In this document: positions 3,614 through 23,177 of the stretch, piece by piece
Layout of the letters: each line of letters starts with the position of its first letter
Position numbering within the stretch: the stretch's first letter is position 1
DNA from: a virus
Reading direction: 5' to 3' (one strand)
IMG/VR virus record: IMGVR_UViG_3300010885_018080
Coordinates: 1 to 23,177 of that record
Length of the DNA stretch: 23,177 nt
Position numbers and translations under genes: made by a program
The notes under the pieces: model-generated
The model's input: only the letters and a program-made list of their open reading frames with translations
Databases searched by the model: none
What the model was told of the DNA's origin: nothing

Positions 3614-6600
3614 ATGGCAACAACTACGAGACAGACAGCAATTTTTGGCGTCGAAGATTGGAAAAGAATCTATCAGACCTATAGAGAAGCTGACTTTCAA
3701 AGCTATGATTTTGAGACACTACGCAAGAGTTTTGTAGATTACTTGCGTTTGTACTATCCTGAAACATTCAATGATTATATTGAATCATCTGAGTTTATTG
3801 CTTTACTTGATGTTATGGCATTTATGGGCCAAAGTCTTGCATTCAGATCTGATTTAAATACCCGCGAAAACTATTTAGATACTGCCGAAAGACGTGATAG
3901 CGTAGTTAAATTAGCTAATTTGGTTAGTTATACTCCACTACGTAATACCGAAGCTTCGGGGTATCTTAAAGTATTCAGCGTGAAAACCACTGAAAATGTA
4001 CAAGATTACAACGGAATTAATTTAGCAAATATCACAGTTAATTGGGCAGATCCCAGTAATCTCAATTGGCAAGAACAATTTACTAGTATCATTAATGCAG
4101 CATTAGTTAATACACAACGTTTTGGAAAACCCGGTAATGACCAAGTTATATTGGGGGTAGATACTCAAGAGTACACTATAAATTTAGTTCCGGGTTATCT
4201 TCCCATTATACCATACACCGCAACCATTGATGGTATTAATATGCCATTTGAAGCAGTCAATGCTACCAGTTCTGGCAAAACCTACATTTACGAGCCGCCG
4301 CCTTTGCCCAATGGGCAGTTTAATGTATTATTCAGAAATGATCAATTAGGATTTTCTAGTTCTAACACAGGATTTTTCTTTTACTTTAAACAAGGAGTAT
4401 TACAAAATCAAGATTTTAACTTGCCAGAACGTATTAGTAATCGACAAGTTAATATCAATATCGAAGGTATAAACAACACTGATGTTTGGTTGTATCAACT
4501 TGATAATGTAGGTAATATAACAAGCTATTGGCAAATTGTACAAAGCGTGTATGCTGCTGCTATCGAGCAACTTGCACCCGGTACACGAAATATCTATAGT
4601 ATAACAAGTACAACCAATGATCAAATTATACTAAACTTTGGTGACGGAATATTCAGTACTATTCCAGTGGGCACTTTCCGTACCTATGTACGTGCATCAA
4701 ACGGGTTAACTTACATTGTTAATCCAGAAGAAATGCAAAGTGTTAGTATACCAATCAGCTATGTTAGTCGCACAAATCAAATTGAGACTATAACATTTAC
4801 GTGTGGAATCACTACACCTGTTACAAATGCACAAGCTCGTGAGACTTTGCAACAAATTAAACAACGAGCTCCGGCACAATACTACACACAAAATCGCATG
4901 GTCAATGGTGAAGATTATAATAATTTTCCTTTCACTCAATACAACAGTATTTTAAAAAGCAAAGCACTAAATCGTGCAAGCATTGGCACTAGTCGTTACC
5001 TTGATCTAGTAGACGGCACAGGAAAATATTCCAGCACCAACACATTTTCTTCTGATGGTGCATTATACGAATCTAATAGCTTACCAGCATTCCAATTTTC
5101 GTGGCTAACAATACCAGACATTTCTGATGTAGTTTATAATCAAATTAATCCTTTGTTGATTAAATCAGGATTGCAACAATTTTATTATGCTAATTTTACC
5201 CGACCTGATTTATCAGTGTTAAATTACACATGGCATCAAAGCACAGTGATTACAAATGAAACCACTGGCTATTTTCAAAATTCGTTAGGCAATCCTGTAT
5301 CCATTGGTGCGTATGCTAGTAATAATGCCAAATATATAACTGAAGGCAGTCTTGTTAAATTCATTCCCCCTACAGGATATTTTTTCAACGCAGACAATCA
5401 ACTGGTAGTAGGCACACCTGGGTTGCCTGGTGACAAATTAGTTTTATGGGCAAGCCCTACTGCAATTTATCAAGCAGGCACTGGTAACGGACTAGGCAAT
5501 TTACCCTCAGGAGTTGGTCCAGTGGTGTTGAATAATTTTATTCCAACTGGGGCCATTCCTACCCAAGTTATTCCAGTGTTTGCCACTACTATTCCAGTTA
5601 GCGTACAACAAAGTATTGTGAATCAAATTTACTTGAATCAAAATTTTGGCATTGGTTACAATAATATAACAGCCACATGGTATATTATAGCATCAAATAA
5701 TCTTGCAGTTAATGCTCCATTTAGTTTAGCTAATCAACAAAGCACTGATGGCACTAACAGTGATGCTTCGTGGCTGATCCAATGTACTACTAGTGCACCT
5801 GGGCTAGCAAATTTTACTGTTGTGTCACGAAGTTTAGATTATTACTTTGGCAGCGTACTAGATACACGATTTTTCTTTTACACAAATCAACCAATCTATG
5901 ATGCACGTACTGGGACTGTGATCAAAGATTTTGTTAATGTATTAAAAATCAATAGCAAACCTGATAGTAATGCTCCATTGCCTGGCGACAATATATTAAC
6001 TATTATAGATCAACCAATACTAAGCGACGGATTGGTTGACGATTTTCAGGTGTTGGTTAGTTTTATTACAACTCCTGGCGATTTAATACCTATTAATCCA
6101 GATTTTTTCAACGATATTGTAGCACCAGAGGTTAATGCTAATCACAAGTTGGTATTTTTACAACAAACAGTTGACTTTAATAATTTGCAAAGATATTTGT
6201 TAGTTGCAAGTGGCACAGTAAACAGCGACTATGCTACTAAAAATGCAATTTTATTAGTGCTTGCAGAATATAATATTGGGCAAGTATTTTACGCTTATCA
6301 AGAACAAGTATTTTATAAACTTGCGGTTAATTCTGCTGGCAACAATATATTGAACGTAGACTCAACTTACATTGCCTACACTGGTCGTCAAGATTTATAT
6401 TTTCAATATAGACATAATTCTCCATTGACCAGCAGAATAGATCCAGGATCAACAAATATTATTGATGTGTACATTGTGACCAACGCCTATTATACCGCTT
6501 ATACAAATTGGTTGCATGATAGTACTGGCACAGTGCAGTTACCTGTTTCGCCCACAATCAATGATTTAACAACTGCTTATGTTGGCCTTCAAGATTATAA

Positions 6601-7027
6601 AATGATATCAGACAATATGATTTTAAATTCAGTGCAGTTCCAGCCATTGTTTGGCAGCAAGGCCGATCCTGCATTAAGAGCAACTGTTAAAGTCATACAA
6701 AACTCTCAAAGCACTGCAAGCACCAGTGAAATTAAAAACCTGGTTATGGCCAACATGAATGCATATTTTGACATAGCCGTGTGGGATTTTGGACAAACAT
6801 TTTATTTCAGTGAATTATCGGCTTATATACATCAGCAAATTGGTGATATTGTTAGTTCTGTAGTGTTGGTTCCATTGAACCCACAAAAGAGCTTTGGTGA
6901 CTTATATGAAATTAGATGTGCCCCTAATCAAATTTTTGTCAATGGTGCCACTGTTAACGATATACAGGTCATAACAGCATTGACCAGTACAAACTTACAA
7001 ACTGCTCCTGGCAGTGGAGTAATTTAA
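3614..7027 (+). CDS. gp6: Baseplate wedge subunit, gp6-like (long form)
   Basis: Protein of 1137 residues. Its N-terminal part carries the gp6/baseplate-J pattern: the helical segment DYLRLYYPETFNDYIESSEF (about 43-62), then a long helix with FRSDLNTRENYLDTAERR, the FGDGIFSTIPVGT motif (342-354) and QRAPAQYYTQNRMVNGEDY (417-435), a strong signature of T4-like gp6. The C-terminal part (about 900-1100) has the helical segment with AYFDIAVWDFGQTFYFSELS. In T4, gp6 forms the intertwined dimers that make the baseplate inner ring with gp25 and gp53. T4 gp6 has 660 residues, so this one is much longer; the extra length appears to lie mainly between about 480 and 900 and is beta-rich with many Asn and Gln. 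The start has a good ribosome site. The TAA overlaps the next ATG by one base (TAATG), coupling it to the giant gene. Confidence 0.88.
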   Translation: MATTTRQTAIFGVEDWKRIYQTYREADFQSYDFETLRKSFVDYLRLYYPETFNDYIESSEFIALLDVMAFMGQSLAFRSDLNTRENYLDTAERRDSVVKLANLVSYTPLRNTEASGYLKVFSVKTTENVQDYNGINLANITVNWADPSNLNWQEQFTSIINAALVNTQRFGKPGNDQVILGVDTQEYTINLVPGYLPIIPYTATIDGINMPFEAVNATSSGKTYIYEPPPLPNGQFNVLFRNDQLGFSSSNTGFFFYFKQGVLQNQDFNLPERISNRQVNINIEGINNTDVWLYQLDNVGNITSYWQIVQSVYAAAIEQLAPGTRNIYSITSTTNDQIILNFGDGIFSTIPVGTFRTYVRASNGLTYIVNPEEMQSVSIPISYVSRTNQIETITFTCGITTPVTNAQARETLQQIKQRAPAQYYTQNRMVNGEDYNNFPFTQYNSILKSKALNRASIGTSRYLDLVDGTGKYSSTNTFSSDGALYESNSLPAFQFSWLTIPDISDVVYNQINPLLIKSGLQQFYYANFTRPDLSVLNYTWHQSTVITNETTGYFQNSLGNPVSIGAYASNNAKYITEGSLVKFIPPTGYFFNADNQLVVGTPGLPGDKLVLWASPTAIYQAGTGNGLGNLPSGVGPVVLNNFIPTGAIPTQVIPVFATTIPVSVQQSIVNQIYLNQNFGIGYNNITATWYIIASNNLAVNAPFSLANQQSTDGTNSDASWLIQCTTSAPGLANFTVVSRSLDYYFGSVLDTRFFFYTNQPIYDARTGTVIKDFVNVLKINSKPDSNAPLPGDNILTIIDQPILSDGLVDDFQVLVSFITTPGDLIPINPDFFNDIVAPEVNANHKLVFLQQTVDFNNLQRYLLVASGTVNSDYATKNAILLVLAEYNIGQVFYAYQEQVFYKLAVNSAGNNILNVDSTYIAYTGRQDLYFQYRHNSPLTSRIDPGSTNIIDVYIVTNAYYTAYTNWLHDSTGTVQLPVSPTINDLTTAYVGLQDYKMISDNMILNSVQFQPLFGSKADPALRATVKVIQNSQSTASTSEIKNLVMANMNAYFDIAVWDFGQTFYFSELSAYIHQQIGDIVSSVVLVPLNPQKSFGDLYEIRCAPNQIFVNGATVNDIQVITALTSTNLQTAPGSGVI
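7016..7019 (+). promoter_or_regulatory. Ribosome binding site of the giant gene, inside gp6
   Basis: GGAG, within the octamer GGAGTAAT at 7016-7023, lies seven bases before the ATG at 7027 and inside the last codons of gp6. The same octamer precedes the fibre gene at 22310-22317. It supports the ATG at 7027 as the start of the giant protein. Confidence 0.6.
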
Positions 7028-10000
7028 TGGCTACAGTTCGCACCGTTGATTTTTTACCCGATATATTCCGGACTCCAGTTAACAAACAGTTTTTATCTGC
7101 CACACTGGATCAATTGGTTCAAGAGCCCAAGTTTAAAAAATCACAAGGGTTTATAGGTCGGCGAGTTGGCCCTGGAGTCAATGCCAATGATCATTACGTC
7201 TTAGAACCCACTAAGTCTCGCAACGATTATCAATTAGAGCCGGGGGTTATTCAAATTGATCCAACGGATGCAACTAAAATTGTAGATGCAATAACATATC
7301 CTGGACTGACTGATGCATTACAAGTCCAAGGCGGAATCACAAATAACTCCAATTATCTTTACACCAGTGAATATTATTCTTGGGATCCGTTTGTTGATTT
7401 TGACAAATTTGTAAACTATGCACAATATTTCTGGCTGCCAGGCGGCCCATTGGCGGTCGATGTTTCAGCCACCGGAGTGCCAGCGACTGATAATTTCACC
7501 GTCACACGTGCCAATGGAGTATACACATTTAGTGGACAGTCAGGAAGCAACCCAACGCTGACACTGGTCAAAGGTGGCAACTATACATTCAATGTTGCAC
7601 AAAATACTACAGAGTCCATTGAGTATCGTGTGACTAACAATGGTACAAGTGCATACGTTATTAATTTTGAAAACAATCCTTCGTTAACATTGGTTCGTGG
7701 TAACACATATGTGTTTAATCTTTCTTTGACAGACACGTTGCCTTTTTTTATTAAAACCATTGCTAGTTTAGGATTGGTAAACATTTATTCCAACGGCGTT
7801 ATTAATAACGGTGCAAGCGATGGATTAATAACATTTATAGTGCCGCAAGATGCGCCAGATATTTTATATTATTGTAATCCTGTAGAATTTAATTTGCGCG
7901 GACAACTTAACATTGTTGATGCCACTGCAGGCACAGGAAATAATTTTTGGATTCAAACAGATCCGGGGGTTAACGGTCGCATTCCTGCCACACCAAACAT
8001 CGGCAGTCGAGATGTGCTTGGTGTTATCAATAATGGTATTGATCTTGGCACCATAACATTTAATGTACCACTCAGTGATGCGCAAAGTTTTTATTACAAT
8101 TTAAATGTGTTACCATTGAATAATGGCACCGTGGATTTGCTAACAACTTTACAGTTTGATCAAGTCAATAATGTGCCTGTTGCTGAATTTATTGCAACCT
8201 ATGGCGGGATCGACGGGATCACGAATCTCAACGGAAGATCATTGATATTTACAAATCAGACTGATGCAGGATGGGACTTTAATAATCTGCCTACTGGATT
8301 TGATTCTGATCCATATTCATATGCAGATCCAATTACAGATCCTGCTTTAAGATACAGTGTTTGGTTTATACAATACAATCTAGTTGATGATGTAGAATAC
8401 ATACAACTGACCAGCATACAACAAATAGCAGATTTAACCAAGTTCACTATACTATTTGGTAGTCAATGGGCAAGTACACAATGGTATAAAGATGCATCTG
8501 GGTATTTTGAAGCAATACCGTTGCTGACTGCAGCAAGAAATCTATTATGGTATCAAGATGGCACCGACCCAAATATTTTTGGGCAAATTCGTTTAATTGA
8601 TCAAACAGCTGCATCAGTATTAGATATTGCTACTATCATTGGTCAAAAAAATTATACCAGTCCCAATGGTGTGGTATTTACTAATGGAATGAAAGTATTA
8701 TTCCGAGGGAATGTTGTTCCTGCTGCCTATCAAAACAATGAATATTATGTAGAAGGAGTTGGCACTGCGATTAAACTTTTGCCAACTACAAATTTTGTTA
8801 CACCTGAATTATACATCACCGATGAGTATACTGCAATTGAAAGTGATTCAACTTTAAATGGCCCATTGGTACCAGATTATATTACAATAAATCGCGCCAG
8901 CTTAGATTTAAATCCGTGGACTCGTAGCAATCGCTGGTTCCATATTGATATTATAAATGCTGCCGCATCTTATAATAATACAATTCCTGTACTAGATAAC
9001 AATCTCAGAGCTCGCCGTCCTGTATTAGAATTTCGTGCAGGAACACGATTATATAATTTTGGAACTGAAGGTAAACAACCAGTTAATATCATTGATTTTA
9101 CTCAAACTGATGCGCTCAGAACAGTAAATGGCAGTATTGGATTTGGCACAGATGGGTATACCTTAATTGAAGGCAGCAGAATTATTTTTGCTGCCGATGT
9201 AGACCCAGTGGTTAGACGCACAATTTATGAAGTTGTGTTTATAACTCCTGACACAGTTCCTCCACTGATACCAGAACCAATTATTAGTTTGATCCCAACA
9301 ACCGATAGTCCTACCTTAGTTGATCAAAGCGTGTTGTGTTTAAATGGTAATACTTTGCAAGGTCAAAGTTTTAAGTATGACGGAATTAACTGGACACAAG
9401 AACAGCAAAAACTTAATGTTAATCAGCCCCCGCAGTTTGACATCTATGATACTGACGGTATAAGTTTTGGCGATCATGCAAAATATCCCAGTACAAATTT
9501 TACTGGTAGTTCTTTATTCAGTTATGCCGTAGGATCTGGTCCTAAAGACTTATACTTGGGATTTCCTTTAACTTATTTGAGTTTAACAAATATCGGCGAC
9601 ATAGTATTTGATAATAATCTTTATGCTGATTCATTTAACTACACTATAAACAATGCTGGTCAAACTGTGCTACTAAGTTCTGGAGTAGTGAGGCAATACA
9701 GCACTAGACTGTTGTTTGATAAAGAAATTGGATGGCAAACAGGTATTACAAAAAGTCAAATCAGACAACAGTTTCAATTTGTTTATGATGGCACTCCAAT
9801 TCTACTAGATGTTGCGGTTAATGCAAATACCGCAATTCCAGCGGTTCAAATATTCATTAATGCTACATTTCAAGAATCTTATAACTATAGAATTACCACT
9901 ACAGATAACACCACTAGAATAACTTGGCTAACTGCTTACGTTCCAGGAGATTTAATTGAAATTGATGTGTTAAGTGATCAAGTCAGCAACAATGGATTTT

Positions 10001-13000
10001 TCCAAGTTCCTATAAATTTAGAAAACAATCCATTAAACAATAATAGTAAACAATTTACATTAGGAACTGTTCGCAATCATTACAGCACTATAGCTCAAAA
10101 TTTAATTCCGTTACAAGGGCCAGTTATTGGTGCAAATAATACTAGAGATTTAGGTAACTTGATTCCCTATGGGTTGCAAATACTGCAACAAAGTTCGCCT
10201 TTGACCCTTGCCGGATACTTTATGCGTGATCCTAACTACAATATTTTTGCAAGTTTGGATTTTAACAGTAGAGAGTATATTAAATTTAAATCTTTGTTAT
10301 TAAACACTGTAATTAATAATGATTACGGAACCATGACTATTCCGGAAATATTAGATTCTGCGATCGCACAAATTACAGTGGGAAAAACTAATCTAAGTCC
10401 TTTCTATTGGAGTGACATGTTGCCCACTGGCACCACGTTTGTTTCGAATTCTACAACCGTTAGCGCAATAACCACTCCGACTTTTAATACTGTACAAACT
10501 TATAGTTTCACTGAGTCCAATTATTTAGGATTGTTAGTATATGTCAACAATATATTATTGGTACGTAATTATGATTATACTGTATCCGCCGATAGTCCAG
10601 TATTAACTATAACAGTTCCATTGAACGTTGGGGATATTGTCACCATCAATGAATATAGTAATACTGTTGGAAGCTTTGTTCCTAACACACCAACAAAGTT
10701 AGGACTGTACCCTAAATTCAAACCAGAAATTTTTTATGATCCAAATTATCTAAACCCAAATCTTGTGATACAAGGGCATGATGGTAGTATAACACTGAGC
10801 TTTGGAGATTTTAGAGATGAGATTCTATTAGAGTTTGAAAAACGTATCTACGATAATCTCAAGAATGACGGAAATCCTGTACCATTGGTATCCGAAGAAG
10901 TAATCCCGGGATTTTTTAGAACCACAGATTATACACAAGCCCAGATTACACAAATTCTTGGAGAAAGTTTTTTAACCTGGGTTGGGCAAAATAAACTGGA
11001 TTACAAAACACAAAATTATATTGCGTCAAATCCGTTTACTTACAACTACAGTGTTTCTGGAAACAAACTGAATGAAGAGCCTATGCTTGGTGCCTGGCGC
11101 GGCATTTATCGTTATTTTTACGACACCACAAGTCCTAATTTAACACCGTGGGAAATGCTAGGATTTTCGGAACAACCAGTCTGGTGGGCCACACGTTATG
11201 GTCCTGTTCCGTATACCAGTGATAACTTGGTGTTATGGGGAGATTTAGAAGCTGGCTATGTGGCTGATCCAGTGGCTCCGTATATTAATCCTCGATATGC
11301 TCGTCCAGGACTAACCACAGTTATTCCAGTTGATTCTCAAGGCGTGTTGCTAAGTCCATTGGAAAGCATAGTTGGACAGTATAATCCTAATGCTTGGCGC
11401 AAAAGTTGGGTTGTCGGTGATGGTGGACCAACAGAAGCTTCGTGGTGGTCTAGTTCAAGTTATCCATTTGCAGTCATGCGTTTGCTGGCATTAACTCGGC
11501 CAGCTGAATTTTTTAGTTTGTTTGTAGATAGAGATTTGTACAAATACAATACAGAATTCAATCAGTATTTGTACAATGGTCGTTACAGAATCAACGCCAA
11601 CGAAATTCAAGTGTATGGCAATGGTGTTAGTAAAGCAAGCTATATCAATTGGATAATTGATTACAATCAACAACTTGGCATTAATTCTTCTACTGCGCTA
11701 ACACAAGATTTAGCAAATCTTGATGTAAGACTTTGCTATAGAATGGCTGCATTTACTGACAAAAAATATGCCAACATATATTTGGAAAAATCCAGCCCAG
11801 AGAGTCAAAACGCAAGTTTATTATTGCCACCAGAAAGTTGGAACCTGCTGCTGTATGCTAATCAACCTTTTAATCAAGTTGTTTATAGTTCATTAATCAT
11901 TGAGCAATTAGAGTCTGGGTTCAGTGTATATGGATACAGTAACGTACAGCCATACTTTCCAATTGTGGTTAGTACAATAAACGGAATTACTCAGACAGTT
12001 AGCGCCGGAGGAATCAGTGTAGTTGTTCCTGCACAATATACCAGTAATATAGTCAATATTCCTTACGGATACAATTTTTCTAATAGTACAATTGTTGTAG
12101 ATTTTATTCTTAGTTATGGAGTATATTTAAACAAAAGCGGTCTGATTTTTGATGCTGTCCAAAACGGATACACATTAAACTGGAGTCAAATGGCTCAAGA
12201 ATTCTTGTATTGGAGCCAACAAGGTTGGGCACCTGGTACAATTATTAATTTAAATCCTGGTGCTACAAAAATTACCGCTTATCGTCCTGGGGCAGTAGTT
12301 GCAGCAATTACAAGCATAACTCCTGAAAACATGCTTACAGATCAAAATAAGCAAAGTATTAAATCACGTGATTTAATCATACAACGATATGGAGACTCAT
12401 TTGTAATATCATCCGCCACTAATCAAACTATTTCTTATTTGGATTTAAAATTTACCAATTATGAAAATATGGCAGTATTAGATAATGTTAGTATTTTCAA
12501 TGATCTGATCTACGACACTACAACGGCCGAACGGCAAAATCGAATCGAATGGAAGGCCAGCATCAGCAGTGAATGGGACGGTACGTTAAACGCACAAGGA
12601 TTTATATTAAATCAAAATAATGTTATCCAATGGCAACCTAATGTAAAATATACCAAAGGTGAAATAGTAATTTACAAAAACAATTACTGGAGCGCATTAA
12701 ACATCGTACAACCGAGCACTACTTTTGAGTATGCTAGTTGGGTGAAAAGTAATTATGCAATGATAGATCCGGGCCTATTACCTAATATTGCAAACAAAGC
12801 TGATCAGCAGGCAAATAGTTACAACATATATGATGCTAATTTGGCGAGAGATAACGATTTATTAGCATACGGACTTATTGGATTCAGACCACGCCAATAC
12901 ATGGTAGATCTTAATCTTGATGATGTTAGTCAGATACAAATTTATCAAGATTTTATTGCAAGTAAAGGCACTCGACTCAGTGCTGAATTGTTTACTCGAG

Positions 13001-16000
13001 CTAATCTCAATAAAGAAACTGGTCAATATAACATATATGAAAATTGGGGAGTATTAGTAGGAACATATGGTGCTAATGCTAATCGTAGTTGGTTTGAAAT
13101 AAGTCTAAATCAATCACTATTAAGTGGTAATCCTAGCACAATACAAATTATTCAGCCAGGCGAATCGAGTCAAGCAAATCAAACAATTTATTTGAGCAAC
13201 TTGTGGAGCGAAAGTTATGCAATACCTACAACAAATATTTTACCAACTACATACGGTGTAAATCTTGACACTGCACTACCTTCAGCAGGTTATGTCAATT
13301 TAAATGATGTAGATATAACTGTTTTTAATCTCAATGATCCAACTAATATTGATGCTAACATAGGTACTTTAGGTGCCGGTACTGTTATATGGGTAGCACA
13401 AATTAACAGTTATGATTGGGGCATTTACAAATGCGTTCAAGTTTCTGGGCGCATGACTATATTAACCAATAATTTAAATGCTACCAGTGTGGTTCAGTTT
13501 ACAAGTACTCACGGCCGAGCAGTCGGCGATATTATTATTATAAAATATTTTAACGATGCAGTAAACGGCGTATATCGAGTTTTGAGCGTACCTTCGCCGT
13601 CTACCCTGGTTATTGCATTTAACTTTACTAATACTGCTCAAACTCAACTCATTGGAGATGGATTGGTATTTTATCTACAGAGTATGCGAGTGAGCCAGGC
13701 CAGCGATGTTGTTAATTTGCCATACGCAACATCACTTGTGCCAGGCGCAACTGCCTGGGTTGATAACGATGGATCAGGCCACTGGGAAGTTTTACAAAAA
13801 ACTGCTCCATTCACAATCACTGACATATTACAACCTTACGCATTATATAACAACTCATTGTTTGGTACCAGTATTAGTCAAACCACTGATCATTATAGTG
13901 TAATAGTAGGCAGTCCAGGAGCCGAATCTGGAGCTGGTGCAATTTATACATATCGTAGAGCAGAATTGGTGCCTTACATAACCAACGTGTTGTTGACACT
14001 TAACGCCACCGGTACTGCAGGATACGGTAATAGCGTTATGTTTGGAAATTTAAATTGGGCAATTGCAGGTGCAAGCGCAAGCAACTCAAATGCTGGGTAT
14101 GCAACCACGTTGTATCAAGTTCCTGGCACCAATAGTTATGTACAAACACAATTATTAGTGGCCCCAGATCAAAATTTTGGTTCAACACAGTTTGGATTTG
14201 CAACTGCCATAAGTTTGGATGAGCGTTGGATGTATATAAGTGCTCCAGGTGCAAATGCAGTGTATGCGTACGGCAGAGTTGATATACCAGCGCAAACAGT
14301 GACCTATCTAACCAATGGAACAACAACTGCGTTTAATTGGGCTGATTCAATAATGATTGATCCTGCCTATCCAAATCAACTGGTTGTTATTGTTAACAAT
14401 TTAGTAGCAGTATATGGCATTGATTATTATATCAATTCAAATTCAGTGCAATTTTATAGTGCTCCTGCAACTGGACAATCATTGATAATCACACGTAAAC
14501 AAGTTGCACAAATTGATCATGCAATTTATTATAATGTTGAACAAAATACAACAAGTGGAATTGGTACGGGTGCAATCTTTACTGTGGCAAACACTCGAGG
14601 ATCATACAATCCTACACTGATCAATGGCGGAACTGATTATGCAATTAGTGATACATTGACCATATCTTATACACAAATTTGTCCCAATGGAAATAGTTCC
14701 AACGATCTAGTGATCACAGTGACTGCAGTTACTGACGGAGTTATCTCTGCATTTACATTTGCTGGCAGCGGAATCAGCACAAACAATGGATTTGCATTGG
14801 TTGATTATTTGTACACAGTGTCAGACATATACTCTTTTACAGTTAGAGTCAATGGAATATTACAAAGACCACATATTGACTATGATTTTAACAGTGATAG
14901 TTCTATAGATTCTGGACTGCTTGAATTCAACACCATTCCGCCGGCAGGTGCAGATATTGAAGTAGTTGCCGACACATATTGGCAATATATTAATTCAATC
15001 TCGGTCAATGGACTGGCTGCAGATGCACTGTTTGGTGCCAGTATTGCTACATCAACAGACGGGCGTCAATTAATAGTTGGAGCACCCAATGATCTTGCAG
15101 CAGACATACAACATGCAGGCTCTGTCTATGTATACGATCGTAGTGTAGTCAGCTATCAGATAACTAATACCGCTCAGACCACATATATAATACCTGGTGA
15201 ATATGCTGATCCTGTTGCCGTACTATTAAACAACGTGTATCTAACTAATACCGCTCAATACATCAATGGGCAATTTACTATCAGCGGAAGTAATATTGTA
15301 CTAAGTTCCGATGTGACATTGTCAATTGGTGATATTTTAACAATTGAAACCAATCAATTCCAACAGATTGAAAAACTTGTTGGAAAAATCCCAGAACAAG
15401 CAGCATTGTTTGGATATGCAACCACCATATGTTCAAATAGTTGTAGCATATATATTGGCGCTCCGTTTTCTAATAAATCTGGAACGCCACAGTCCGGCCT
15501 GGTTGAAAGACAAGTTAATCAAAGCAGAATATATGGAGTTACAACATCAACTGTTGCTAATCCAGTGTTAACTGCTGGAGACACTATCAGAGTTAACAAT
15601 ATTGAAATAGTAGTACCACCAGGTCCTAATAATAACATAGCAGGAGTAGTGGCAGCAATTAACAATGCCAACGTGCCAAATGCCGTTGCAGCTTTGCTAC
15701 CAGATGTTAAATTTGTAGGTAATGGTACTACTAAAATATATGACATAGGATCCATTTATTCAGCCGCCGACTCGTACACCACGGTAGTTTATGTAGATTC
15801 AGTTTTGCAAACCAATGGGGTTGACTATACCTATAATAATGCCACACAGCAAATATTGTTTGTAAGTGCACCAGCTGCAAAATCTGCAATTACTATAGCA
15901 TCGGGCAGAATGACAGTGTCGGTGATAAATGCAAAATCTGCTTTACCGTTCAATAAACTTAGTGTGCTTCCGGGTCTAGCAAGTTCTGCATTTGACGCAA

Positions 16001-19000
16001 TTGGATTTAATACTTATATTTGGGTGCAAGACATTTTAAGCCCAAACCCAACCGATTATGGGCATTTTGGATCTAGCATTAGTGTTAATACAGGTGCAGT
16101 AAATCTAGTAGTTGGTGCACCAAAGGGTAATGTGTACGAACAAGAAATATTCGACGGTGGCGAAACTTATTTTGACGAACGCAGCACAACATTTTTCAAT
16201 CCTATTATCAACAGTGGTGTAGTATACACATATGATTATTTGCCTAGTGCAACTACATCTGCTTCAAATCCAGGGTACTTTGTGTTTGGGCAACAAGTTT
16301 ATAATAATAAGTTGATAAACGGAGACCAATTTGGTACCGCAGTAAATTATGTTAGTGGTAGATTAATAGTAGGTGCGCCGGGCAGTGATACTGAAACTAT
16401 AATAAATTATGGTGAATCATATATATTTGACAACCCGACTAATTTACCAGCCTGGCAAGTACAATATTATCAGCAACCAGTGGTTGATACAAACCTTCTT
16501 ACAACTGTTTACAGCTATGACAAATTATTAAATAGCACACAAACATACTATGATTTTATTGATCCTTTGCAAGGAAAAATATTAGGTGCTGCTCGACAAA
16601 ATATAAACTATATTGGCGCAGTAGACCCAGCAACTTACAATCAAGGATCCATACACAATGTTGGAACAAGTTGGGGGTCGGCGCATGTGGGCGAGATTTG
16701 GTGGGATACCAATCGAGTCAGATTTATAGATCCTAATCAAGATGACATTGTTTACGCTAGCAAACGTTGGGGACAAGTATTCCCTGGAAGTAATGTTGAC
16801 ATTTATCAATGGATAGAGAGCTCATCAGTACCTGCAAGCTATACAGGTGTTGGCACTCCTTTGAGCACTATCAGTTATACAGTTGAAACTACAGTTAATA
16901 AAAATGGCATTTTTGTCACAAATTATTATTTCTGGGTTAGGGGAATATCAATAATAAACACCGCAGTAGGTAAAACTTTAAGTACAACTGGTATTGCTAA
17001 TTATATTTTAAATCCAATAGGTAGCGGAATTCCTTATATAGCAGGGTTAAATTCCAGCACCATTGCAATCTACAATGCTGGTAGTTTGCTATCAGCGCAA
17101 GATACTATTTTACATGTTGGATACGACCGTCAAGCTACTACTGCTGACGTTCATGTCGAATATGAGTTTATACCCGATGGCCGCCCCGATGGATTTTTGA
17201 ATGCTAATTTATATAGAAAATTTCTAGACAGTTTTTGCGGCACAACTTTAACAGGTAGCCCGGTCCCAGACCCTATGCTAAGTCCAGGACAACAGTACGG
17301 TGTACAATTTAGTCCACAACAAAGTATGTTTGCCAATCGCTTTATGGCATTGCAAAACTATTTGACACGAGCTAACACAGTATTAGCACAATATCCTATT
17401 AGTGAAACACGTAGTTTTAATTTACTAAACAGTTCGGAACCAAAACCAGCACCAAATACAGGCGCTTGGAATTTTGAAGTACCTAATCTTGAAGTATTGG
17501 GCTACCAAAATCTTGCACAAGTTCCGTTGGGATATTTGTATTTGGTTGATTCGGACTCTAGTCAACACGGATTATGGACAATCTACGTAGTAGCACAAGG
17601 CAATCCTGGTCAGCGAGTATTAGATCTTGTACGTATACAAAATTACGATACTCCTATGTATTGGACATATATTAACTGGTATAGACCTGGATACAATAGT
17701 TCAACTCAGATTGTGGCCACTGTGACCAATTATGCTGGTCTGAGTACATTAAGTTTAGTCTCTACGCCAGTGGGTAGTAGTGTAAAAGTATCCACTAATA
17801 GTCAAGGAAAATTTGAAATTTACCTAAGAACTGCAACTGGATGGGATCGTGTAGGATTACAAGATGGCACTGTAGAATTTAGTGCAACTTTGTGGAACTA
17901 TGCGTTGGGGCCATATGGGTTCGACGCAGAAGTGTTTGATGCTCAATATTTTGACCAAGAACCTGTTATTGAAACTCGTCAAATTATTCGTGCACTAAAT
18001 GAAGAACTTTACATCAATGAATTGTTGATAGAACGAAATCAGTCATTGGTGTTGATGTTTAATTTTATCTACAGTGAATTTACTGCTCCTAACTGGTTAA
18101 TGAAAACTAGTTATGTTGACGTAGATCATACTTTACGAGCATTACTACCTTATCAACTTTATCAGTCTGACAATCAAACTTTTGTAGAAAATTATATTCA
18201 AGAAGTAAAACCTTATCATACGCAGATACTTAATTTTAATCTTATCTATGATGGCATGGATACCTATGCAGGTATGCTAACTGATTATGATGTGCCTGCG
18301 TACTATAAAACTGATATAGATTTTCCACAATTTGTTAGCCCAATATTAACACCATACACAAGTTCAAATAGTGTTGCTGAAAGTTTTGTTAGTGATGCTG
18401 CGTCTAATGCAGCAATATGGATGAAATTTCCTTGGAATCAATGGTTCAGTAATTACCTCTTGGAAATACAAGATGTGATTGTAGTCACTGGTGGTACTGG
18501 ATACAGTTATACTAATCCGCCTACTGTGACAGTCAGTGGTACATGTGTAACACAAGCTACAATGACTGCAACTGTCAATAGTTTGGGACAGGTCACTTCT
18601 ATAAATATTATTGACCCCGGAGCAGGGTATAGCACTACTGCACAAATTACACTAACATCTGATACTGGATCTGGTGCAATCATTGTTGCACAAATGGGAA
18701 ACGGGCTAGTTCGATCATTCCGCACAGTTATTAAATACGATAGATATCAATATCAAACATCCATAGTAGAATGGCAACCCAATATTATATATACTGAAGG
18801 TACACAAGTACGTTATGCAAATGTAGTATGGAGCGCAATTGGTACACAATCTTCTACAACATTTATACCGTCTGAATGGACAAAGGTAGATGCTGCTTCG
18901 CTCAGTGGTGTTAATCGTACTATGGGATTTTATACCCCGGGCCCAAACCAACCTGGGCTAAGTTTACCATTATTGATTAACGGAGTTGAATACCCGGGAG

Positions 19001-21501
19001 TTCAAGTACTTGGGTTGAATTATAATCAAAATACTGGTTTTGACATTGGTAATTTTGATATTAACCCTTTTGATAATTTCTTTATAGGACCAGAAGGATT
19101 GCCTACGTATGACCCAGCAATACTTGATACATTATATGGCAGTTCTTATCTTGATTTATATCTCGGCACAAGGCCAACTGACATCAATGTGTCGGGCGAT
19201 GCGTATATTAGTCCTTACAGCAGTCATGCACCAGAAGAGCTTGTACCGGGTGCAGAATTTGATACATTAGATTTCAGAGTATACACTACCCCCGGCGCAG
19301 ATTGGCGCGGAGTAGGGCATGGATTCCCGTTTGTTGGGAAACGGTATACTTACAATCCTGCAAATCCAGTGGAGTATTTTGGAGATTTATTACCATTTCC
19401 AATGGTTGTATTAGCCTGGAACATAACAACTGGATTAGGTGTCGAACCAAGTGCGTATGATTGGGTTAACTACAACTTTACACTAACACAAGGTGCCAGT
19501 GCCGGTGATATTATACAAATTGCTGTTGTAGCCACCGGAGGTGGAAATCAATTAATGAGCGATACTTATATTGGTTCCGATATAGGTAATACAATAATTA
19601 TACCATTTAACTACAGTGCAATCAGTGAATTTGTCATATACAACGGTGAATTTGGACCATTGGTGCAAAATGTTGATTATACGTATTCAGTTTATAATCA
19701 AAATAATACTGTAATAACATTTACACAAACATACGGCTCGTCAGATAGAATTAATTTAACTTGTCTTGGCTATGCTGGTACTGGGCCAACTTATAGTTGG
19801 AGCCTTCCTATATTCCAGTCATTTTTTATAGAAAATTCAACTATATTATCTTACACATTGACCAACAGTTTGCAAGGTACTAATCCAGTTAATATTGTAG
19901 TGACTCGAAATGGTGTACGGGCCAGACCATCTAACAGCGTGAGATATATTACCAATGGACTGCAAACAATATATGATTTGCCAATCACTGACGGTGTCAA
20001 CCAGGAACTTATTACCGACAATGATGTCTCAGTATATTTAGATAATCAAGTCTTGATTCAAAACGTTGATTATGTAGTTGATCCTTTTGATATTTCGTCT
20101 TTACGCACCATAACTTTGGCCGTTCCAGCGCCTTATGGAAATACATTGTTAGTAGCAGTTAGGACTGCTGCACAATATTGGGTAGTCGGAGATCAACTAA
20201 TTTTCCAACCTAGTGCTGGATTAAGTCCACAAGTCGGCGATTTTATAGAAGTCATAACATGGAATGACACATCAGAACAAAGATTATTAACGCAAGTATG
20301 GGTTGGTCCTACCACCGAAGGAGTTTATGTTGGTGAAGGATTTGATACTACTAACTACGATCCGTTGTTTATACCACAAGCCATGTTTACAAGTAATCCT
20401 CCTGTGCCGTTGACTGCAACAACGTTGCAAGCTGATCACGAATATCAAATTAATGCGCCAGGCACTACTGATTTTACATTGATTGGTGCTCCTGACAATA
20501 ATACAGGTACAATTTTCTTAGCTACCGGCCCCGGGACAGGTACAGGTAATGCTTTTGAAATAGTATATACTCGAGATCCTAACACAAGCACATATAATAA
20601 CATGCCTGGAGCATACGATTACAGTGCAACGGTACCAGTTTTGACCAATAAATTTGATATAGGCACTATTATTTTAAATCCGGAAAGATTGTTAGTGACA
20701 TTGAATGGTAATTGGTTATTCAATGGCGAAGGGTACACAACTGATGGATCAAATATAATTATAAATGGACCTCCTATATCAGCATCTTCAGTAGTAGCGG
20801 TTACTAGTTTTGCGCAAATCAGTGTGCCTGCGGCAATGGCATTCCGAATTTTCCAAGACATGAGAGGTGTGCAAGCCACGTATAGAATAACATCAACTAC
20901 TACAACTACTTTGGTACAACCGGTGTCTATAACCGACGACATCATTTATGTCAACGATGCTGCCGCACTGATTGAACCAAATCTAGTAGACAATGTGTGG
21001 GGTGCATTGACCATCGACGGCGAGAGAATTATGTATCGTGTTAGAAATATTAACAATAATACTGTCAGTAGTTTACTAAGAGGCACTGCCGGAACTGCTG
21101 CCGCCTCACATACATCCGGAGCTATCGTATACAATATAGGGCCAGGAAATTTATTACCAGCAGAATATCAAGATTATATTGTTGCTAATAAAACATTAGG
21201 CGATGGAACAACTACTACATTTGTGGCTGATAATATTGATGTTGGTAGTTTAGATAGTACCACTATGGAAGAAGCAGTACAGGTATATATCGGCGGAACA
21301 TTGCAAACTTCTGGATATATTATAACTGCAGACAACCCTGTGATAGTAGAATTTGATACTGCTCCGCCGGCTAATGTAGAAGTAGATATTTTAATTCGTA
21401 GAGGCGTGACTTGGTACGCACCTGGAATTAACTCTGCTAGCAATGGTAGACCTTTACAAGAAACCAATACCAAAGCTGCAAGATTCCTACGTGGACTTTA
21501 A
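7027..21501 (+). CDS. Giant modular virion protein, 4824 residues (probable baseplate/tail-fibre protein)
   Basis: One frame with no stop for 14,475 bases. In gene order it replaces T4 gp7 and gp8, but it does not look like either. Modules in order, by residue: conserved N-terminus with DFLPDIFRTPVNKQFLSATL (about 7-26); two degenerate cupredoxin-like repeats (about 170-375); a region with YTSPNGVVFTNGMKV and NNEYYVEGVGTAIKLLP (about 540-585); GAWRGIYRYFYDTTSPN and TPWEMLGFSEQPVWW (about 1350-1390); a CBM5/12-like motif (1868-1907); seven FG-GAP repeats (2279-3138); GEIWWDTNRVRFI (about 3222-3234); a GTGY-PPTVTVSG beta module (3817-3890); a second CBM5/12-like motif (3915-3955); SHAPEELVPG (about 4078-4087); then fibre modules to a conserved-looking ARFLRGL end. 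No signal peptide or membrane segment is seen. From memory, related giant structural proteins exist in aquatic T4-like phages. Host-surface contact is inferred from the adhesin-like modules. Confidence 0.82.
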   Translation: MATVRTVDFLPDIFRTPVNKQFLSATLDQLVQEPKFKKSQGFIGRRVGPGVNANDHYVLEPTKSRNDYQLEPGVIQIDPTDATKIVDAITYPGLTDALQVQGGITNNSNYLYTSEYYSWDPFVDFDKFVNYAQYFWLPGGPLAVDVSATGVPATDNFTVTRANGVYTFSGQSGSNPTLTLVKGGNYTFNVAQNTTESIEYRVTNNGTSAYVINFENNPSLTLVRGNTYVFNLSLTDTLPFFIKTIASLGLVNIYSNGVINNGASDGLITFIVPQDAPDILYYCNPVEFNLRGQLNIVDATAGTGNNFWIQTDPGVNGRIPATPNIGSRDVLGVINNGIDLGTITFNVPLSDAQSFYYNLNVLPLNNGTVDLLTTLQFDQVNNVPVAEFIATYGGIDGITNLNGRSLIFTNQTDAGWDFNNLPTGFDSDPYSYADPITDPALRYSVWFIQYNLVDDVEYIQLTSIQQIADLTKFTILFGSQWASTQWYKDASGYFEAIPLLTAARNLLWYQDGTDPNIFGQIRLIDQTAASVLDIATIIGQKNYTSPNGVVFTNGMKVLFRGNVVPAAYQNNEYYVEGVGTAIKLLPTTNFVTPELYITDEYTAIESDSTLNGPLVPDYITINRASLDLNPWTRSNRWFHIDIINAAASYNNTIPVLDNNLRARRPVLEFRAGTRLYNFGTEGKQPVNIIDFTQTDALRTVNGSIGFGTDGYTLIEGSRIIFAADVDPVVRRTIYEVVFITPDTVPPLIPEPIISLIPTTDSPTLVDQSVLCLNGNTLQGQSFKYDGINWTQEQQKLNVNQPPQFDIYDTDGISFGDHAKYPSTNFTGSSLFSYAVGSGPKDLYLGFPLTYLSLTNIGDIVFDNNLYADSFNYTINNAGQTVLLSSGVVRQYSTRLLFDKEIGWQTGITKSQIRQQFQFVYDGTPILLDVAVNANTAIPAVQIFINATFQESYNYRITTTDNTTRITWLTAYVPGDLIEIDVLSDQVSNNGFFQVPINLENNPLNNNSKQFTLGTVRNHYSTIAQNLIPLQGPVIGANNTRDLGNLIPYGLQILQQSSPLTLAGYFMRDPNYNIFASLDFNSREYIKFKSLLLNTVINNDYGTMTIPEILDSAIAQITVGKTNLSPFYWSDMLPTGTTFVSNSTTVSAITTPTFNTVQTYSFTESNYLGLLVYVNNILLVRNYDYTVSADSPVLTITVPLNVGDIVTINEYSNTVGSFVPNTPTKLGLYPKFKPEIFYDPNYLNPNLVIQGHDGSITLSFGDFRDEILLEFEKRIYDNLKNDGNPVPLVSEEVIPGFFRTTDYTQAQITQILGESFLTWVGQNKLDYKTQNYIASNPFTYNYSVSGNKLNEEPMLGAWRGIYRYFYDTTSPNLTPWEMLGFSEQPVWWATRYGPVPYTSDNLVLWGDLEAGYVADPVAPYINPRYARPGLTTVIPVDSQGVLLSPLESIVGQYNPNAWRKSWVVGDGGPTEASWWSSSSYPFAVMRLLALTRPAEFFSLFVDRDLYKYNTEFNQYLYNGRYRINANEIQVYGNGVSKASYINWIIDYNQQLGINSSTALTQDLANLDVRLCYRMAAFTDKKYANIYLEKSSPESQNASLLLPPESWNLLLYANQPFNQVVYSSLIIEQLESGFSVYGYSNVQPYFPIVVSTINGITQTVSAGGISVVVPAQYTSNIVNIPYGYNFSNSTIVVDFILSYGVYLNKSGLIFDAVQNGYTLNWSQMAQEFLYWSQQGWAPGTIINLNPGATKITAYRPGAVVAAITSITPENMLTDQNKQSIKSRDLIIQRYGDSFVISSATNQTISYLDLKFTNYENMAVLDNVSIFNDLIYDTTTAERQNRIEWKASISSEWDGTLNAQGFILNQNNVIQWQPNVKYTKGEIVIYKNNYWSALNIVQPSTTFEYASWVKSNYAMIDPGLLPNIANKADQQANSYNIYDANLARDNDLLAYGLIGFRPRQYMVDLNLDDVSQIQIYQDFIASKGTRLSAELFTRANLNKETGQYNIYENWGVLVGTYGANANRSWFEISLNQSLLSGNPSTIQIIQPGESSQANQTIYLSNLWSESYAIPTTNILPTTYGVNLDTALPSAGYVNLNDVDITVFNLNDPTNIDANIGTLGAGTVIWVAQINSYDWGIYKCVQVSGRMTILTNNLNATSVVQFTSTHGRAVGDIIIIKYFNDAVNGVYRVLSVPSPSTLVIAFNFTNTAQTQLIGDGLVFYLQSMRVSQASDVVNLPYATSLVPGATAWVDNDGSGHWEVLQKTAPFTITDILQPYALYNNSLFGTSISQTTDHYSVIVGSPGAESGAGAIYTYRRAELVPYITNVLLTLNATGTAGYGNSVMFGNLNWAIAGASASNSNAGYATTLYQVPGTNSYVQTQLLVAPDQNFGSTQFGFATAISLDERWMYISAPGANAVYAYGRVDIPAQTVTYLTNGTTTAFNWADSIMIDPAYPNQLVVIVNNLVAVYGIDYYINSNSVQFYSAPATGQSLIITRKQVAQIDHAIYYNVEQNTTSGIGTGAIFTVANTRGSYNPTLINGGTDYAISDTLTISYTQICPNGNSSNDLVITVTAVTDGVISAFTFAGSGISTNNGFALVDYLYTVSDIYSFTVRVNGILQRPHIDYDFNSDSSIDSGLLEFNTIPPAGADIEVVADTYWQYINSISVNGLAADALFGASIATSTDGRQLIVGAPNDLAADIQHAGSVYVYDRSVVSYQITNTAQTTYIIPGEYADPVAVLLNNVYLTNTAQYINGQFTISGSNIVLSSDVTLSIGDILTIETNQFQQIEKLVGKIPEQAALFGYATTICSNSCSIYIGAPFSNKSGTPQSGLVERQVNQSRIYGVTTSTVANPVLTAGDTIRVNNIEIVVPPGPNNNIAGVVAAINNANVPNAVAALLPDVKFVGNGTTKIYDIGSIYSAADSYTTVVYVDSVLQTNGVDYTYNNATQQILFVSAPAAKSAITIASGRMTVSVINAKSALPFNKLSVLPGLASSAFDAIGFNTYIWVQDILSPNPTDYGHFGSSISVNTGAVNLVVGAPKGNVYEQEIFDGGETYFDERSTTFFNPIINSGVVYTYDYLPSATTSASNPGYFVFGQQVYNNKLINGDQFGTAVNYVSGRLIVGAPGSDTETIINYGESYIFDNPTNLPAWQVQYYQQPVVDTNLLTTVYSYDKLLNSTQTYYDFIDPLQGKILGAARQNINYIGAVDPATYNQGSIHNVGTSWGSAHVGEIWWDTNRVRFIDPNQDDIVYASKRWGQVFPGSNVDIYQWIESSSVPASYTGVGTPLSTISYTVETTVNKNGIFVTNYYFWVRGISIINTAVGKTLSTTGIANYILNPIGSGIPYIAGLNSSTIAIYNAGSLLSAQDTILHVGYDRQATTADVHVEYEFIPDGRPDGFLNANLYRKFLDSFCGTTLTGSPVPDPMLSPGQQYGVQFSPQQSMFANRFMALQNYLTRANTVLAQYPISETRSFNLLNSSEPKPAPNTGAWNFEVPNLEVLGYQNLAQVPLGYLYLVDSDSSQHGLWTIYVVAQGNPGQRVLDLVRIQNYDTPMYWTYINWYRPGYNSSTQIVATVTNYAGLSTLSLVSTPVGSSVKVSTNSQGKFEIYLRTATGWDRVGLQDGTVEFSATLWNYALGPYGFDAEVFDAQYFDQEPVIETRQIIRALNEELYINELLIERNQSLVLMFNFIYSEFTAPNWLMKTSYVDVDHTLRALLPYQLYQSDNQTFVENYIQEVKPYHTQILNFNLIYDGMDTYAGMLTDYDVPAYYKTDIDFPQFVSPILTPYTSSNSVAESFVSDAASNAAIWMKFPWNQWFSNYLLEIQDVIVVTGGTGYSYTNPPTVTVSGTCVTQATMTATVNSLGQVTSINIIDPGAGYSTTAQITLTSDTGSGAIIVAQMGNGLVRSFRTVIKYDRYQYQTSIVEWQPNIIYTEGTQVRYANVVWSAIGTQSSTTFIPSEWTKVDAASLSGVNRTMGFYTPGPNQPGLSLPLLINGVEYPGVQVLGLNYNQNTGFDIGNFDINPFDNFFIGPEGLPTYDPAILDTLYGSSYLDLYLGTRPTDINVSGDAYISPYSSHAPEELVPGAEFDTLDFRVYTTPGADWRGVGHGFPFVGKRYTYNPANPVEYFGDLLPFPMVVLAWNITTGLGVEPSAYDWVNYNFTLTQGASAGDIIQIAVVATGGGNQLMSDTYIGSDIGNTIIIPFNYSAISEFVIYNGEFGPLVQNVDYTYSVYNQNNTVITFTQTYGSSDRINLTCLGYAGTGPTYSWSLPIFQSFFIENSTILSYTLTNSLQGTNPVNIVVTRNGVRARPSNSVRYITNGLQTIYDLPITDGVNQELITDNDVSVYLDNQVLIQNVDYVVDPFDISSLRTITLAVPAPYGNTLLVAVRTAAQYWVVGDQLIFQPSAGLSPQVGDFIEVITWNDTSEQRLLTQVWVGPTTEGVYVGEGFDTTNYDPLFIPQAMFTSNPPVPLTATTLQADHEYQINAPGTTDFTLIGAPDNNTGTIFLATGPGTGTGNAFEIVYTRDPNTSTYNNMPGAYDYSATVPVLTNKFDIGTIILNPERLLVTLNGNWLFNGEGYTTDGSNIIINGPPISASSVVAVTSFAQISVPAAMAFRIFQDMRGVQATYRITSTTTTTLVQPVSITDDIIYVNDAAALIEPNLVDNVWGALTIDGERIMYRVRNINNNTVSSLLRGTAGTAAASHTSGAIVYNIGPGNLLPAEYQDYIVANKTLGDGTTTTFVADNIDVGSLDSTTMEEAVQVYIGGTLQTSGYIITADNPVIVEFDTAPPANVEVDILIRRGVTWYAPGINSASNGRPLQETNTKAARFLRGL
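7548..8150 (+). repeat. Two tandem degenerate cupredoxin-like repeats in the giant protein
   Basis: The first repeat (residues about 174-297) has the pattern NPTLTLVKGGNYTFNV, LPFFIKT, GVINNG, GLITFIVPQDAPDILYYC and RGQLNIV. The second (about 306-375) repeats NFWIQT, GVINNG, LGTITFNVP and QSFYYNL; the shared GVINNG lies at 257 and again at 332. Cupredoxin-like domains of phage structural proteins often read HPFWIKT and C-x-x-H-x-x-M. Here the His is Leu238, the site after Cys283 reads NPVEFNLRG without His or Met, and the second repeat lacks Cys as well. Copper binding is therefore unlikely and the fold is probably structural. Confidence 0.55.
12628..12747 (+). other. CBM5/12-like motif 1 in the giant protein
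   Basis: Residues 1868-1907 read QWQPNVKYTKGEIVIYKNNY followed by W-S-A and a closing S-W-V-K. The spacing W, Y-x-x-G-x-x-V-x-Y, W-x-A, W matches chitin-binding-type CBM5/12 modules. A paralogous copy lies at 18769-18891. Binding to a polysaccharide is inferred only. Confidence 0.45.
13861..16440 (+). repeat. Seven FG-GAP repeats: predicted integrin-like beta-propeller with inserts
   Basis: FG-GAP repeats begin at residues 2279 (FGTSIS...VIVGSPG), 2332 (GYGNSV...AIAGAS), 2389 (FGFATAIS...MYISAPG), 2669 (FGASIATSTDGRQLIVGAP), 2795 (FGYATT...IYIGAP), 3014 (FGSSIS...LVVGAP) and 3102 (FGTAVN...LIVGAP). Several end in an A-x-Y-x-Y or VYVY strand. Seven is the number in integrin-alpha propellers. 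Gaps between repeats are uneven (53, 57, 280, 126, 219 and 88 residues) because fibre-type beta modules are inserted between blades 3/4, 4/5 and 5/6. The classic calcium motif DxDxDG is not clearly present. Such propellers usually serve protein or sugar contacts. Confidence 0.65.
15161..15257 (+). repeat. 16-bp direct repeat, 81 bases apart, in frame
   Basis: TAACTAATACCGCTCA occurs at 15161-15176 and again at 15242-15257. The spacing is exactly 27 codons, so both copies encode T-N-T-A-Q in the same frame, between propeller blades 4 and 5. A third T-N-T-A-Q is encoded near 13630 with different bases. It may be a trace of a short in-frame duplication. Confidence 0.6.
18474..18695 (+). other. 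Gly-Tyr/PPTV beta module in the giant protein
   Basis: Residues about 3817-3890 contain GGTGYSYTNPPTVTVSG, then a V-N-S-L-G-Q-V-T-S-I strand and DPGAGYSTTAQITLT. This GxGY-PPTV repeat type is common in phage tail and fibre proteins. It is followed at once by the second CBM5/12-like motif. Confidence 0.5.
18769..18891 (+). other. CBM5/12-like motif 2 in the giant protein
   Basis: Residues about 3915-3955 read EWQPNIIYTEGTQVRYANVV followed by W-S-A and S-E-W-T-K. It aligns along its length with motif 1 near residue 1868, including the WQPN-x-x-Y-T-x-G core, so the two are paralogous. Confidence 0.45.
20437..20560 (+). other. TTDFT-IGA / GTGTG fibre module in the giant protein
   Basis: Residues about 4138-4178 read HEYQINAPGTTDFTLIGAPD, then NTGTIFLATGPGTGTGNAF. 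This GTTDFTxIGA...TGxGTGTG pattern is a common small module in phage tail and fibre proteins of otherwise different sequence. Its role is not established here. Confidence 0.55.
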
Positions 21502-22324: not shown

Positions 22325-23177
22325 ATGTCGTATACAATAACGTTAACCGATGGTGCAGTATTTGCTACTGTAGCAGATGGCACTATAAACACTTCCAGTT
22401 CCATGACCTTGGTAGGTAAAAATTATGCTGGATATGGCCAATTCTTAAATGACGATATTATACGTTTATTAGAATGCGGATCAAATTCTACTCCACCTGG
22501 TGCACCATTAACAGGGCAACTTTGGTTTGATTCTGGAGCTGGATTGCTCAAAATTTATAACGGTAGTGTGTTTAAAACTATTTCGGCTGCAACCGCTAGT
22601 GACTCTGCGCCCACTAGTAACAGCACCGGCGATTTATGGTATAACACAACTACACAACAACTTAATGTATGGACTGGTACAACATGGCTATTGATCGGTC
22701 CGCAGTTCACTGCTGGACAAGGTATAACCGGAGCAATTCCGGCAACAATAGTAGATAATGGATCGTTCAGTCATCAATGTATTGAATTGTATTGTGGTAA
22801 TAATATAATAGGTATTGTTAGTCAAGACGCGGCATTCACACCTGCAACTCCTATTCCAAATTTTACTACAGTACGCCCTGGTATTACTCTTGCAGCATAC
22901 GGAACCGGTGCCAATGTTCCGTTGTTTCAAGGCACTGCCACAAATTCTCAAGCACTCAGCGGACTGGCAAGCACACAATTCATGCGAAATGATGCCAATG
23001 CAACTACTTCTGGCACTGTGGGCATATTAAACAATGGCGGATTATCAGTGGGTCTCAATAGTGATTTAAGAGTCACTGTTGCCGGCACCGCAGTTACTGT
23101 GGCCAATCAAACTTCAAATGGCAACATTAATTTTAGTGTAAACAAAGCTGGGGTTCCTACCACAGTCATGACAATCA
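22325..23177 (+). CDS. Tail-fibre protein, N-terminal part (gene runs off the window)
   Basis: The frame is open from ATG at 22325 to the last base, giving 284 residues of a longer protein. It starts MSYTITLTDGAVFATVADGT, an N-terminus I associate with tail-fibre proteins of T4-like aquatic phages. Two tandem repeats follow: LTGQLWF...LKIYNGSVFKTIS (from residue 62) and STGDLWY...LNVWTGTTWLLIG (from residue 100), 38 residues apart. A G-PQFTAGQG linker leads to a beta-rich part, and residues about 200-240 carry the common fibre module TATNSQALSGLASTQFMRND followed by TTSGT. The N-terminus would attach to the baseplate or to a neighbouring fibre and the missing C-terminus would contact the host; both points come from the usual arrangement of such fibres. 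Late-promoter-like motifs and a GGAG ribosome site precede it. Confidence 0.8.
   Translation, partial: MSYTITLTDGAVFATVADGTINTSSSMTLVGKNYAGYGQFLNDDIIRLLECGSNSTPPGAPLTGQLWFDSGAGLLKIYNGSVFKTISAATASDSAPTSNSTGDLWYNTTTQQLNVWTGTTWLLIGPQFTAGQGITGAIPATIVDNGSFSHQCIELYCGNNIIGIVSQDAAFTPATPIPNFTTVRPGITLAAYGTGANVPLFQGTATNSQALSGLASTQFMRNDANATTSGTVGILNNGGLSVGLNSDLRVTVAGTAVTVANQTSNGNINFSVNKAGVPTTVMTI

Follow-up and report, generated by a model that had tools for sequence, protein, structure and literature searches.

A predicted seven-bladed, integrin-type propeller with variable loop inserts in a giant phage protein encoded next to baseplate wedge genes

The virus record IMGVR_UViG_3300010885_018080 of IMG/VR is an incomplete genome of 23,177 nucleotides, which was analysed over its full length (the window). 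One open reading frame (ORF) at 7027-21501 encodes a giant protein of 4824 amino acids (aa), and inside this protein a seven-bladed propeller of the integrin type is strongly predicted at aa 2262-3149 (13810-16473, inserts included). The giant gene with its parts and the two wedge genes described here lie on the plus strand. The N-terminal half of the giant protein is a member of phrog_10938 (E 1.4e-288), in agreement with synteny. Immediately upstream lies a gp6-like baseplate wedge gene (3614-7027; phrog_10646, E 1e-272), which is preceded by a gp25-like wedge gene (3194-3568; Pfam GPW_gp25, 27.7 bits at a cut-off of 27.2). An initial annotation, made from the window sequence, had proposed a seven-bladed integrin-like propeller in a giant phage structural protein. 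This interpretation is right in outline and partly supported: the propeller does lie in a giant protein adjoining baseplate wedge genes.

Motifs of the FG/YG...GAP type start at aa 2279, 2333, 2389, 2669, 2795, 3014 and 3102, with FG-to-FG spacings of 54, 56, 280, 126, 219 and 88 residues. The seven ordered repeats of the initial annotation are thus found at their sites, and the blade spacing is short at first and opened later, as it had described. The length of 88 to 250 residues given for the inserts confuses spacing with insert length; beyond a blade of about 55 aa, the net inserts amount to about 225, 71, 164 and 33 aa. Drawn from motif, model and alignment, the blades occupy aa 2279-2323 (blade 1; 13861-13995), 2333-2377 (blade 2; 14023-14157), 3014-3091 (blade 6; 16066-16299) and 3102-3149 (blade 7; 16330-16473). 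Strands A-C of blades 3, 4 and 5 lie at aa 2389-2418 (14191-14280), 2669-2711 (15031-15159) and 2795-2831 (15409-15519), and the corresponding D strands, placed by model and alignment, at aa 2651-2658 (14977-15000), 2770-2784 (15334-15378) and 2997-3003 (16015-16035). The A-B hairpin of blade 5 carries cysteines at aa 2802 and 2806 (15430 and 15442), a CxxxC pair that is present in the relatives' consensus and may possibly be a disulphide or a metal site.

Evidence for seven blades from the single sequence is moderate. The Pfam FG-GAP_2 profile matches three stretches with a total of 47.4 bits (cut-off 23); taken singly, only blade 4 (27.3 bits) and blade 7 (23.9 bits) exceed the cut-off. Leave-one-out hidden Markov models (HMMs) recovered six of the seven blades, blade 2 being missed; blades 1, 4 and 7 alone scored above all 200 shuffles. 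When the PDB was searched by sequence, neither the region nor the whole protein nor the alignment gave a significant match.

Relatives were collected by scans of viral contigs, in which the best 80 were taken from at least 597 relatives for the core of the protein, from at least 577 for the propeller region and from at least 375 for a divergent clade. The propeller region was compared in an alignment of 126 relatives. An aromatic-G (or LG) motif and a GAP-like triplet are kept at all seven columns in the large majority of them, the FG of blade 6 being present in 126 of 126, and most complete relatives give per-sequence HMM matches at the same seven positions. The divergent clade is about 28% identical to the window and has fewer inserts; FG-GAP_2 is matched by 63 of its 67 sequences and a seven-bladed lactonase family by six. 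Taken with structure prediction, the comparative evidence confirms the seven repeats. It is on this comparison and the predicted structure, and not on the profile count, that the propeller claim is upheld: the initial annotation had set fewer than five profile-detected repeats as refuting it, and the profile search alone finds three, which the other two lines outweigh. Several contigs of the propeller lineage exceed 300 kb, and the hosts of this protein are therefore jumbo phages. The gene psbA, looked for as an indication of cyanobacterial hosts, is absent from eight long relatives. Bacterial and archaeal genomes yielded one short, unrelated-looking match.

The structure of aa 2090-3270 was predicted with AlphaFold2 from 69 sequences, with a mean predicted local distance difference test (pLDDT) of 89.9 and a predicted template modelling score (pTM) of 0.84. 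In a Foldseek search of the PDB, integrin alpha chains fill most of the top ranks (probability 1.00, template modelling (TM) score by target up to 0.59); the top rank itself is taken by Elp123, likewise a propeller protein, at a low TM-score. A second model was made for a divergent-clade member that is 28-31% identical to the window and lacks the blade 3 insert, from its own 67-sequence alignment (pLDDT 87.5, pTM 0.88). Integrin alpha chains take the first 16 ranks for this model, with TM-scores by target up to 0.60 and a root mean square deviation of 6-11 Å across the whole propeller. Both models show an extra strand before blade 1 and another after blade 7, either of which might close the ring. 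The domain is strongly predicted to be a seven-bladed integrin-type propeller.

Integrin alpha propellers (e.g., alpha5 and alphaV) likewise consist of seven FG-GAP blades of four strands each, and they are the best fold matches in the PDB. Unlike these cell adhesion receptors, the propeller studied here belongs to a phage virion protein, shares about 10% sequence identity with them and carries inserts in its C-D loops. Integrin-type DxDxDG calcium loops were found in none of the window's A-B hairpins, which span 7-10 residues from mid-strand to mid-strand. Because these loops are missing, the domain is better described as an FG-GAP_2-like propeller than as an integrin proper. Bacteria and giant viruses have FG-GAP_2 repeat proteins (Pfam PF14312), which are of the same repeat family by profile, and giant-virus FG-GAP proteins are matched in BFVD by Foldseek with TM-scores by target up to 0.75. 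Those shown are standalone proteins, whereas the phage repeats form one domain of a 4824-aa protein and are spread over about 870 residues.

Insert positions were obtained by mapping the predicted strands onto the 126-sequence alignment. Strands A and B lie 7-10 residues apart in all seven blades, with hardly any variation among relatives, and the D-to-A distance in the window is constant at about 17-22 residues. From C to D, blades 1 to 7 measure 13, 13, 240, 73, 172, 19 and 14 residues. Since the C-to-D distance alone varies strongly, the modules belong within blades 3, 4 and 5; the initial annotation had placed them between blades. Blade 6 has a lengthened B-C loop, with an extension of about 32 aa at 16120-16215. 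Among the 126 relatives, variation by whole modules is as a rule confined to the C-D loops of blades 3-5. Exceptions are few: four relatives carry additional modules in the B-C loop of blade 1, and two in the D-A link between blades 2 and 3. In the divergent clade, no module separates strand C of blade 3 from the same strand D, which follows it directly. The C-D loops of all blades of a propeller lie on one face, and by this topology the inserts would leave from one face of the disc.

Delimited by the alignment and a module profile, the blade 3 insert (aa 2419-2650; 14281-14976) contains two repeated beta modules (aa 2421-2492 and 2588-2655) and a third, optional module (aa 2500-2585), the latter being present in 79 of the 126 relatives. 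The blade 4 insert (aa 2712-2769; 15160-15333) is one beta module. In blade 5 (aa 2832-2996; 15520-16014), a flagellin-IN-like module is combined with an optional beta module (aa 2905-2962), found in 60 of 126; Pfam Flagellin_IN itself is matched by one relative. The flagellin-IN-like part of the insert occurs again in another protein, about 1100-1150 aa long, of the same phages (L010, L042, L054 and L039; recurrences at G001:118863-119075, G002:1778-2074, G004:102994-103269 and G005:99221-99517).

The four inserted beta copies belong to one family (VxVNxxLQ...DYT), which recurs outside the propeller in the same protein, where the copies are weak: aa 1145-1205 (10459-10641; at most 12.8 bits), 4301-4367 (19927-20127; 17.6 bits), 4514-4589 (20566-20793; 13.1 bits) and 4722-4788 (21190-21390; 15.0 bits). 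The inserts thus contain the protein's own repeated module, as had been annotated; the label "fibre modules" was a guess, the modules being present elsewhere in the same protein. The comparison of related phages called for by the initial annotation shows that the inserts come and go, as is evident from the spacings, the module counts and the tree. The FG3-FG4 spacing clusters near 52, 105, 190, 280, 355 and 409 residues. On an approximate FastTree phylogeny of the core protein, this spacing changed at least 16 times and the FG5-FG6 spacing at least 14 times. Horizontal exchange of modules beyond that of the flanks is not claimed, only a mild excess having been seen in a few pairs.

By tblastn, homology to the core extends to 97 records. 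Homologues in cultured jumbo phages include those of the PA5oct group, Salicola SCTP-2, Sinorhizobium Phosso, Agrobacterium Atu_ph07, Vibrio 2.275.O, 121Q, RaK2, Munch and others, and all jumbo-phage homologues share a conserved core corresponding to aa 974-1866 (9946-12624). All the jumbo-phage homologues tested, including the propeller-less ones, have the sequences that flank the propeller on either side; downstream, this anchor covers aa 3151-3320 (16477-16986). FG-GAP motifs were found in none of six examined homologues from cultured phages. Between the anchors, 121Q has about 50 aa, Vibrio phage 2.275.O 128, a PA5oct relative 326 and SCTP-2 424, and in Phosso and Atu_ph07 the slot holds about 1530 aa of different, repeat-rich sequence. 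Since the anchors are kept in homologues that lack the propeller, the latter is an added domain at a site which other phages use differently. The rhizobial slot (L004 and L007; about aa 1680-3200) is rich in GxGYxxxPxVxVxG repeats, and no Pfam family was found above cut-off in its contents.

The domain is entered through a hairpin, AWVDNDGSGHWEVLQK (aa 2243-2258; 13753-13800), which has a calcium-type DxNxxG motif in some relatives. About ten of them (L012, L028, L030, L047, L090 and others) show the form DxNxDGxWE in this hairpin before blade 1, and not in the blades. A similar W-x-V strand motif stands on both sides of the propeller, as GHWEVLQK and AWQVQYYQQPVVD (aa 2243-2258 and 3142-3152), and the second, divergent clade has WAVYRKS and DWSVYRSS. 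In a PA5oct relative the motif occurs once only, before VVD. The paired motifs may mark how the domain was inserted.

The order gp25, gp6, giant protein found in the window is repeated in cultured homologues wherever annotated, and in T4 the equivalent position directly after gp6 is occupied by gp7. Mass spectrometry detected a homologue of the giant protein, the propeller-less gp245 of phAPEC6 (381.88 kDa), in the virion on the basis of 17 unique peptides (PMC7247149). Because of the wedge-gene neighbourhood and the phAPEC6 proteomics, the giant protein is likely a virion component of the baseplate region in a jumbo myovirus. Other giant proteins encoded after gp6 (phrog_10938: phAPEC6 gp245, 121Q gp582, and those of PA5oct and Atu_ph07) have the same core, anchors and gene order; the six cultured-phage proteins examined carry no FG-GAP repeats, and the slot, in the phages whose slot lengths are given above, is short or filled otherwise. 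No paper combining FG-GAP repeats with phage baseplates was found in the literature searched. The parts belong to known kinds. Their combination is new to that literature, and so are the slot and the changeable inserts on one side.

The probable function, though well short of certain, is that the propeller serves as a fixed platform on which exchangeable beta modules are presented close to the baseplate. One internal slot of the giant protein, short or otherwise filled elsewhere, would hold a closed seven-bladed propeller acting as a rigid disc whose A-B and D-A connections stay constant. Blades 3, 4 and 5 have C-D loops lengthened by beta modules from the pool that also supplies the rest of the protein. 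Placed at the baseplate rim, such a platform might hold the modules outwards, where they could make contact either with the envelope of the cell or with other fibres of the virion. A tentative suggestion, slightly less likely than not, goes beyond this: the propeller would be an expandable socket with its modules on one face, and the conserved slot a place at which jumbo phages in general customise the tail base.

Several points weigh against the platform. Closure of the ring and a common face for the inserts would follow from strand order, the Foldseek superposition and general propeller topology, and the TM-scores (0.56-0.60 by target length) are depressed by the inserts. The propeller found no tblastn match in 50,697 phage records, that is, no cultured phage bearing it. 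By homology, the propeller-bearing version would be present in the virion. T4 gp7, in the same place after gp6, has no sequence similarity to the giant protein even by profile-to-sequence comparison (hhalign probability below 1%), and hhalign revealed no homology to T4 gp6-gp11. Hypervariability of the loops, taken as a sign of receptor binding, was not found by column identity: the mean values are 0.39-0.48 in loops, 0.43 in inserts, 0.47-0.64 in strands and 0.52-0.66 in flanks.

The last result bears equally on the reading ranked second after the platform, namely that the propeller is a receptor-binding domain which uses its ligand face to recognise a glycan or protein on the host surface and sets host range. 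Propellers are common binding folds, beta-propeller lectins are known in the fibres of phage-tail-derived injection systems (PMC12923769), and the same protein has two CBM_5_12-like stretches (25.5 bits, just under the cut-off). The loops on either face, however, exceed the strands only slightly in variability and resemble the inserts in their degree of conservation, so that a strain-specific receptor binder is not supported; the inserts emerge from the C-D loops of blades 3-5, and the integrin calcium loops are absent. This reading is therefore considered unlikely, and the "binding domain" of the initial annotation finds no backing in these loops. It is the lack of hypervariability in loops and inserts, together with the missing calcium loops, for which the platform is preferred over a strain-specific binder.

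Ranked third is an internal assembly hub, in which the propeller would join wedges, or the gp6-like and giant proteins, and the inserts would fill contacts within the virion. The propeller does lie in a wedge-region protein, and its conservation is close to that of the structural flanks; yet the homologues of 121Q and Vibrio phage 2.275.O assemble virions without a propeller, and such free variation in module number is unusual where a contact is buried. Such a hub appears improbable. That the protein, being beta-rich and low in GC, has no propeller and shows FG-GAP-like strings by chance might be suggested by the profile scores of blades 2, 3, 5 and 6, no better than shuffles, and by the three stretches that Pfam detects, but this explanation is already contradicted and can hardly be maintained given all seven sites conserved in 126 relatives, two confident models with integrin alpha chains high or first in Foldseek, and the FG-GAP_2 and seven-bladed family matches of the divergent clade.

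These results put a predicted integrin-type propeller into the contractile tail of phages from an uncultured group that is very abundant (matches in at least 577 and at least 375 viral contigs), within a conserved giant protein whose slot is filled differently by different jumbo phages. If the propeller of the preferred platform reading does display modules, it would offer a direct way to study tail-base customisation in large phages.

Some further observations concern the rest of the window. The two CBM_5_12-like (chitin-binding type 3) stretches, which reach their score jointly, lie at aa 1869-1878 (12631-12660) and 3916-3925 (18772-18801), have the pattern WQPNVxYxxG and are also present in the PA5oct and SCTP-2 homologues. 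Downstream of the giant gene are a conserved ORF of 202 aa and a tail-fibre-like ORF at 22325-23176, which runs off the end of the window.

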